DNA of 47,552 nt from the NCBI GenBank assembly GCA_900319705.1, contig ONPL01000003.1, positions 1 through 47,552 on the forward strand, in the 5' to 3' direction. The notes below the pieces were generated by a model, which saw only the letters and a program-made list of their open reading frames with translations, had not been told where the DNA came from and ran no database searches. Source of the stretch: an uncultured Pseudomonadota bacterium (GTDB lineage: Bacteria > Pseudomonadota > Gammaproteobacteria > Enterobacterales > Succinivibrionaceae). A program made the position numbers and the translations under genes. Below are positions 17,370-18,239 of the stretch, piece by piece (the stretch's first letter is position 1; each line of letters begins with the position of its first letter).

Positions 17370-17403
17370 CTTTCTGTGCTATATTATCAGTTCTGTATTT
17401 AGT

Positions 17404-17443
17404 AAAATACCTTTCCCTTTATGTTGGAAAGGTATTTTAATTT
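17404..17443. terminator. Bidirectional terminator between nlpD and the His-rich gene
   Basis: A perfect 13-base stem, AAAATACCTTTCC (17404-17416) with GGAAAGGTATTTT (17426-17438). The A-rich left arm and T-rich right arm let it stop convergent transcription from both sides. Confidence 0.85.
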
Positions 17444-17514: not shown

Positions 17515-17814
17515 CTAATAATGATGGCGGTGATGTGGTGGAGGAGGTGGCGGTGGACAATGATGTCCGTGACGCCCACAAGGAGGTGGTGGAGGACAGT
17601 GATGTCCCGGAGGACAGTGATGACGATGGTGGTGATGCCTTGGAGGAGGTGGCGGAGGCGGTGGAGGACAGTGGTGACCCGGAGGGCAATGATGATGATG
17701 TGGCCCCGGTACGGCAATTATCATATCCGATGTATCAAAAATAGAAGCTTGTGAAAGCATCGGCAGAGATAAGGACAGACCAAGAACAGCTAATATTTTT
17801 GTCGCTTTATTCAT
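17515..17814 (-). CDS. Secreted His/Pro/Cys-rich repeat protein, probably metal-binding
   Basis: A 99-residue protein with a clear signal peptide (MNKATKILAVLGLSLSLPML, cut after SQA, ~23). The ~76-residue mature part contains about 21 His, 27 Pro and 6 Cys. The unit HHCPPGHHCPPPPP occurs twice, followed by a shorter GRHGHHCPPPPPPPHH. The reading frame is supported by AGGAAGGA five bases before the ATG and by a signal peptide directly in frame with the repeats. The repeated His/Cys pairs would bind Ni, Zn, Cu or Co; Pro runs would keep the chain extended. No family is recognised. It is separate from, but near, a His-rich lipoprotein on the same strand, and occupies the place where rpoS normally follows nlpD. 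Function as a metal buffer or chaperone is an inference. Confidence 0.75.
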   Translation of the reverse strand: MNKATKILAVLGLSLSLPMLSQASIFDTSDMIIAVPGPHHHHCPPGHHCPPPPPPPPPRHHHHRHHCPPGHHCPPPPPCGRHGHHCPPPPPPPHHRHHY

Positions 17815-17846
17815 GAATTCCTTCCTATAAAATGAATAATATGTTA

Positions 17847-17869
17847 TGACAATCGTTATTTCGATGTCA
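17847..17869. promoter_or_regulatory. Inverted repeat, possible operator upstream of the His-rich gene
   Basis: TGACAATCG (17847-17855) and CGATGTCA (17862-17869) form imperfect inverted arms (one extra A) around TTATTT, 33-55 bases upstream of the His-rich start codon. The position suits a repressor or activator site, for example a metal sensor, but no known consensus is matched confidently. Confidence 0.35.
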
Positions 17870-18011
17870 TCACATTAGATGATTATACATGGAAAAAGTT
17901 TCATAAAGTGGAGAATTTTAATGATATCGATCAAAAATATGAGATTAAAAAAATCACTTGGACCAAGTATTGGCCAAATGATTTTCAGTAATAATTATCT
18001 GGCAGTGTTAT

Positions 18012-18239
18012 TTAGCGGTGATGCCCGCCCTTAGGTTCTCCGTGATGATCTCTGTGGCGAGGTGCGGGTGCATGATGTCCGTTGTGGTGGTGTCCTTCAT
18101 TGTGATGAGGAGGTGGCGGCGGAGCATGATGATGGTGATGATGACCGTTGTCCCAATCGTCGTCTACCACTATACAGCCCGAAAGAGAAAGTGTAGCAAC
18201 AAAAAACGGTATTACAATATAAATAAATTTTTTCAGCAT
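18012..18239 (-). CDS. His-rich lipoprotein, probably metal-binding
   Basis: A 75-residue lipoprotein: residues 1-21 are a type II signal peptide (MLKKFIYIVIPFFVATLSLS) with lipobox SLSGC, lipidated at C22. The mature ~54 residues hold about 18 His in clusters (a run of six after DDDWDNG, then APPPPPHH, EGHHH, NGHH, RHRDHH, ending GGHHR). The Asp after +1 is not the +2 Asp retention signal (+2 is Ile), so outer-membrane sorting is likely. The frame extends upstream to 18422, but those 61 residues lack signal-peptide character; the internal ATG at 18239 has GGAT seven bases upstream and starts the lipoprotein signal directly. With the secreted His/Cys-rich protein downstream on the same strand it suggests an envelope metal-handling pair (inference). 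Confidence 0.75.
   Translation of the reverse strand: MLKKFIYIVIPFFVATLSLSGCIVVDDDWDNGHHHHHHAPPPPPHHNEGHHHNGHHAPAPRHRDHHGEPKGGHHR

Follow-up and report, generated by a model that had tools for sequence, protein, structure and literature searches.

A window of 47,552 nucleotides from an uncultured member of the Succinivibrionaceae, probably of rumen origin, was analysed, and two genes with extreme amino acid composition were found between nlpD and purH. Both lie on the reverse strand: gene A at 17515..17814, which is convergent with nlpD, and gene B at 18012..18239, separated by a gap of 197 bp (17815-18011). The coordinates, the common strand and the 197-base spacing given in an earlier note on this DNA were all exact. 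Gene B is predicted to encode a His-rich lipoprotein of 75 aa, reading MLKKF...LSLSGC followed by IVVDDDWDNGHHHHHHAPPPPPHH..., and was matched by a profile built from its relatives (E=1.3e-22 and E=1.6e-19). The signal peptide and lipobox (SLSGC) extend to Cys22 (18174..18239, reverse strand), as judged from the sequence and from the family signature GC-[VI]-x-[VI]-[DE]-D. The mature part from Cys22 contains 18 His in 54 residues, precisely the composition that had been estimated before, and includes a run of six His encoded by CAT CAT CAC CAT CAT CAT (18126..18143, reverse strand). Since the residue at +2 is Ile and not Asp, sorting to the outer membrane is expected under the E. coli rule, and the outer membrane is probably the destination of B.

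Gene A encodes a His/Cys/Pro-rich protein of 99 aa with a predicted signal peptide ending in SQA, and the profile of its relatives matched it with E=1.2e-23. The remaining 76 residues hold 21 His, 6 Cys and 27 Pro, in agreement with the soluble His/Cys-rich protein described in the earlier note. That description did not include the three copies of C-x(3,4)-GHHC-P(5+) present in A, which read, on the reverse strand, CPPGHHC followed by nine Pro (17668..17688), CPPGHHC followed by five Pro (17596..17616) and CGRHGHHC followed by seven Pro (17557..17580). Polyproline runs, which reach nine residues in A, are expected to require EF-P in translation. AlphaFold2 predicted the signal-peptide helix and no other fold (pTM 0.18); this prediction of disorder applies to A only.

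Approximately one-third of the residues of A and B are His (~33%), compared with 2.0% in the large open reading frames (ORFs) of the window, and by a binomial estimate the observed His counts would arise by chance with a probability of ~1e-17 (B) and ~1e-18 (A). The highest number of His per 54 residues in the other ORFs of the window (>=150 aa) was 6. The His and Pro runs are encoded by a mixture of synonymous codons, indicating that recent DNA repeats are not their source. When closely related A- and B-type orthologue pairs were compared, pN/pS ranged from 0.10 to 0.29, the amino acids being kept and the synonymous sites diverged. The ratio was 0.19 for the B-type genes of the same-genus genomes G050 and G053, 0.15 for a long lipoprotein pair, 0.13-0.29 for other lipoprotein pairs, and 0.15 (G050/G053) and 0.10 (G028/G030) for A-type genes. 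It was 0.46 for a soluble protein encoded near pdxH, which is described below. The genes of the window itself were compared with the more distant G050, and the values obtained are less secure: 0.37 for B, with pS of 0.94 close to saturation, and 0.51 for A, with many gaps. The purifying selection on the orthologue pairs of the relatives indicates that A and B are genuine genes, and, judged by these sequence comparisons, selection maintains the His and Pro runs of A- and B-type proteins. These data bear on the possibility that A and B have a structural or surface role, in which their Pro/His/Gly repeats would form spacers or an adhesive coat and would bind metal only incidentally. The orthologues differ strongly in length, and paralogues have long Pro, Gly-Pro and Tyr-Pro repeats, as such a role would allow. 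However, selection keeps the His runs, and the short B-type forms consist chiefly of Asp-His and not of Pro-Gly, and we regard a structural role as quite unlikely.

Inspection of the gap between the two genes revealed a strong intrinsic terminator of B on the reverse strand (17943..17986), in which a near-continuous stem formed by an inverted repeat (17950-17985) is followed by a U run. The RNA fold has a free energy of -18.2 kcal/mol (z -4.94), and 0 of 200 shuffled sequences were equally stable; a stricter consensus terminator scan did not list it. A bidirectional terminator with perfect 14-bp arms (17403..17439, z -6.45) is common to A and the convergent nlpD. With one terminator in the gap and another after A, the locus is best read as two separate transcription units. 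A candidate promoter of A, TGTATAAT at 17889-17882, was picked by eye on the reverse strand, together with an inverted repeat at 17841-17875 (17841..17889 in all); this repeat, upstream of A, folds weakly (z -2.2) and is not evidence of function. No known RNA element was found in the region.

Neither protein had a relative above the cut-off in Pfam, NCBIfam or PDB, and a search of the literature on His-rich proteins of Succinivibrionaceae yielded nothing relevant. We built profiles from relatives and ran them on 57 Succinivibrionaceae genomes, in which the genus of the window is denoted g1. B-type genes were defined by the lipobox, C-[VI]-x-[VI]-[DE]-D and a His/Pro-rich tail, and A-type genes by a signal peptide and repeated CxPG-x(n)-CPPPPP; B and A have all of these features, and the lipobox with the acidic signature GC[VI]x[VI][DE]D is conserved in the aligned relatives of B. 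Clear B-type genes occurred in 11 of the 57 genomes, that is, in all five of g1 (two copies each), three of the four of g9 and all three of g11. Weaker matches were found in g8 and g14, with one marginal match in g12, and the g14 gene (L192), when read directly, resembles a B-type member. In a sample of 274 genomes of the class, the B profile matched otherwise only two genomes, weakly and in unrelated lipoproteins, so that a B family extending beyond Succinivibrionaceae was rejected; a search for B on plasmids gave no match. A and B represent two new, previously unnamed Succinivibrionaceae families of a known functional kind, and the survey defines two protein families under selection in gut and rumen members of this group.

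A-type genes were present in eight genomes, four of g1, three of g11 and one of g9 (G026, where the score was weak and the match clear by eye). The earlier note had proposed checking the co-occurrence of the two genes across Succinivibrionaceae. All eight carriers of A-type genes are among the 11 carriers of B-type genes, as co-occurrence would predict, but these genomes fall in only three genera, and the association is not independent evidence.

The neighbourhood of A and B was then compared with those of relatives. In three genomes of the same genus, nlpD adjoins purH with gaps of 174, 523 and 415 bp and no His-rich ORF between them. By their identical PurH and NlpD identities, these genomes correspond to the records of Succinivibrionaceae bacterium Tb.RUG.285 and of the uncultured Aeromonadales RUG12740 and RUG14131, isolate names from which a rumen origin is probable. 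According to gene names assigned by eye, the A-type genes of these three genomes are in the purC/bamC region. The B-type genes lie near ndh and glgX in G050 and G053, while G052 and G051 have a short B-type gene adjoining a long one, and in G052 pdxH is next to them. In no other genome seen were A- and B-type genes adjacent; their loci are separate. Conserved A-B synteny was rejected for these reasons, and the A-B neighbourhood is specific to the lineage of the window.

A related arrangement was observed at pdxH. In G050 and G053, a long His-rich lipoprotein gene is followed 86 and 107 bp downstream by a gene for a soluble His/Pro protein, and in G052 two lipoprotein genes are accompanied by genes for two more exported proteins, of which one or both are His/Pro-rich. 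The soluble partner does not have the Cys loops of A and is not visibly a member of the A family. These pairs indicate that the combination of a tethered and a soluble His-rich protein recurs. As a separate observation, the gene after pdxH is znuA in G026 (L196), while in g1 (L187, L150, L135) pdxH precedes the cluster of His-rich lipoprotein and soluble protein genes.

The earlier note had interpreted A and B as a two-part envelope module for metal handling, with one part tethered to the membrane and the other soluble. In favor of this, both proteins are extreme in His content and both are predicted to be exported, one of them as a lipoprotein and the other in soluble form; in addition, every A carrier has B, and three genomes of the same genus have a tethered and a soluble protein encoded together at pdxH. 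Against it are the terminator in the B-A gap, the separate loci elsewhere and the empty nlpD-purH interval of three relatives. The idea thus receives partial support as a theme and none as an operon. A stricter version would be a dedicated relay, in which metal gathered by soluble A would reach a transporter after docking of A on tethered B, or with the two roles exchanged. By our own estimate (~2 genes for lipoproteins and ~2 for soluble proteins in a total of ~2,300), A and B would be adjacent by chance with an expectation of ~0.002, and this, together with the pairs at pdxH and the presence of B in all eight A genomes, speaks for a relay. Nevertheless, a relay agrees poorly with the terminator between the genes, the lack of A- and B-type adjacency in any other genome seen, a pdxH partner outside the visible A family, and the absence of a transporter gene close to A or B, and we consider it unlikely.

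The metal that A and B might bind was approached through gene context. The earlier note had suggested looking for adjacent metal-transport, urease or hydrogenase genes; none adjoins A or B, there is no metal gene in the window, and none is found beside most A- and B-type relatives. Among the 57 genomes of the family, HypA was not detected above the cut-off, and no full urease alpha subunit was found in g1, g9 or g11, the match in the genome of the window being a partial one of 37 residues. HypA and urease were both absent from the genera with clear family members; this speaks against a nickel role, and a link to urease or hydrogenase was rejected. The His-rich composition of A and B does recall Hpn, and storage or delivery of nickel to urease or [NiFe] hydrogenase could be imagined on this model. 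Hpn and Hpn-2 of Helicobacter, also a pair of small, lineage-specific His-rich proteins, act in intracellular nickel trafficking tied to these two enzymes (PMC4671568), whereas A and B both bear N-terminal export signals, by which a cytoplasmic protein of the Hpn type was rejected, and the enzymes were not found. A nickel function is strongly disfavoured and has very little chance of being correct.

Zinc is our first guess for the metal, from chemistry and precedent only. Zur-like and CpxR sequences upstream of the genes in g1 were at or near shuffle level, with no common metal-regulator site, and sites of both kinds were rejected on this basis. Fur-family proteins (PF01475) were not detected in four g1 genomes (G000, G050, G052, G053), nor was ZnuA (PF01297) in the genome of the window itself; both results are tentative and weak evidence because the assemblies are drafts. 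The ZnuA proteins of g9 and g11 relatives that were examined (L194-L201) have a His-rich loop, mostly long, and those of G050 and G053 in g1 have none. As Fur/Zur went undetected in the genus and ZnuA in this genome, one may speculate that in this lineage zinc homeostasis under a regulator has partly given way to a permanent layer in the envelope, made up of several disordered His/Pro proteins, some tethered and some soluble, with passive buffering of zinc and perhaps of protons; we hold this to be a long shot. The data do raise the question of how zinc is managed in the envelope of bacteria with no detected Fur/Zur regulator.

The reading we favor, with a probability of roughly 55%, is that A and B are members of a set of exported His/Pro-rich proteins, intrinsically disordered and specific to the lineage, whose role in the envelope would be that of a metal sponge or buffer of high capacity; Zn2+ is the first candidate, Cu and other divalent ions being possible. 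B, lipid-anchored and probably in the outer membrane, would carry its His clusters on a flexible Pro-rich tail, and A would be free in the periplasm with its three C-x(3,4)-GHHC loops set between polyproline spacers. Both would damp swings in free metal and keep metal outside the cytoplasm, and, being transcribed separately, they would probably act in parallel and not as a dedicated two-protein machine. In favor of a sponge are the extreme composition, the export signals, the selection on the His and Pro runs, the export signals on every plausible HHHH protein of this genome, the lack of a predicted fold in A and of database relatives, and the precedents of SilE and PhtD. Against a sponge, many low-complexity exported proteins serve other roles, and there are no metal genes beside A, B and most relatives, no shared upstream regulator site and no Fur-family gene detected in four g1 genomes.

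The same absence of metal genes would suit proton buffering, in which a His-dense, Pro-spaced periplasmic layer damps the pH swings of fermentation and metal binding is secondary. The pKa of His is close to rumen pH, and B is high in His with few other metal ligands. However, buffering of pH does not call for the Cys-His loops that are conserved in the A family, and a large amount of protein would be required; we think it rather improbable.

Known systems offer precedents for a metal sponge. SilE is a disordered periplasmic sponge that binds Ag via His and Met (PMC5008109), and, like A and B, SilE and PcoE are small and exported with His-containing metal-ligand motifs, SilE being disordered without metal. 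SilE, however, relies on motifs of both His and Met and belongs to the sil system of silver resistance, whereas A and B have few Met, polyproline spacers and no efflux neighbours; no homology to SilE/PcoE was found above the cut-off in Pfam or NCBIfam, and the genes around A and B, nlpD and purH, do not form a metal efflux operon of that kind. PhtD of streptococci is a His-rich surface Zn scavenger whose gene is in an operon with that of zinc-binding AdcAII (PMC3842936). Pht proteins, for which zinc scavenging is proposed (PMC3842936), share with A and B a His-rich envelope character, but they consist of beta-stranded HxxHxH repeats and are linked to adcAII, whereas A and B have no such fold or neighbour, no Pfam match up to E 10, and His residues in runs. 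The His-rich loops of ZnuA, found in the g9 and g11 relatives too, are likewise dense periplasmic His segments within the same family, although they are placed inside a folded substrate-binding protein and A and B stand alone. The best-supported analogy is that A and B would work like SilE and Pht, and they are members of neither by the tests made. As small natural polyhistidine proteins, they are suited to metal-binding tests.

Finally, other poly-His proteins and upstream motifs were surveyed. In the genome of the window, the codon pattern for HHHH occurs at ~20 separate places, and the complete, plausible genes among them are A, B and one each on contigs C41 and C101, all for exported proteins; the other frames look spurious. 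Neither of the latter two was mentioned in the earlier note. The one on C41 encodes the second B-type lipoprotein of this genome. The product of the one on C101 (L238:1408-1779, G000:C101) is an exported Tyr/Pro/His/Gly-rich protein with HHHHHH, encoded ~10 bp after an ampD-like gene. Upstream of the g9 and g11 B-type genes (L190, L141, L139, L189, L134), the motif TGTAACnTTTTGAnACA was found with 13-15 of 15 positions matching, and 0 of 60 shuffles were as good; it is absent upstream of the g1 B-type genes, including those of the genome of the window. The motif resembles a response-regulator direct repeat or an extended -35 region. In G053 (L149:4598-6624, G053:C237), a gene for a CobW/COG0523-type GTPase is followed by one for a secreted EF-hand protein with HGHHMPPPPP repeats.
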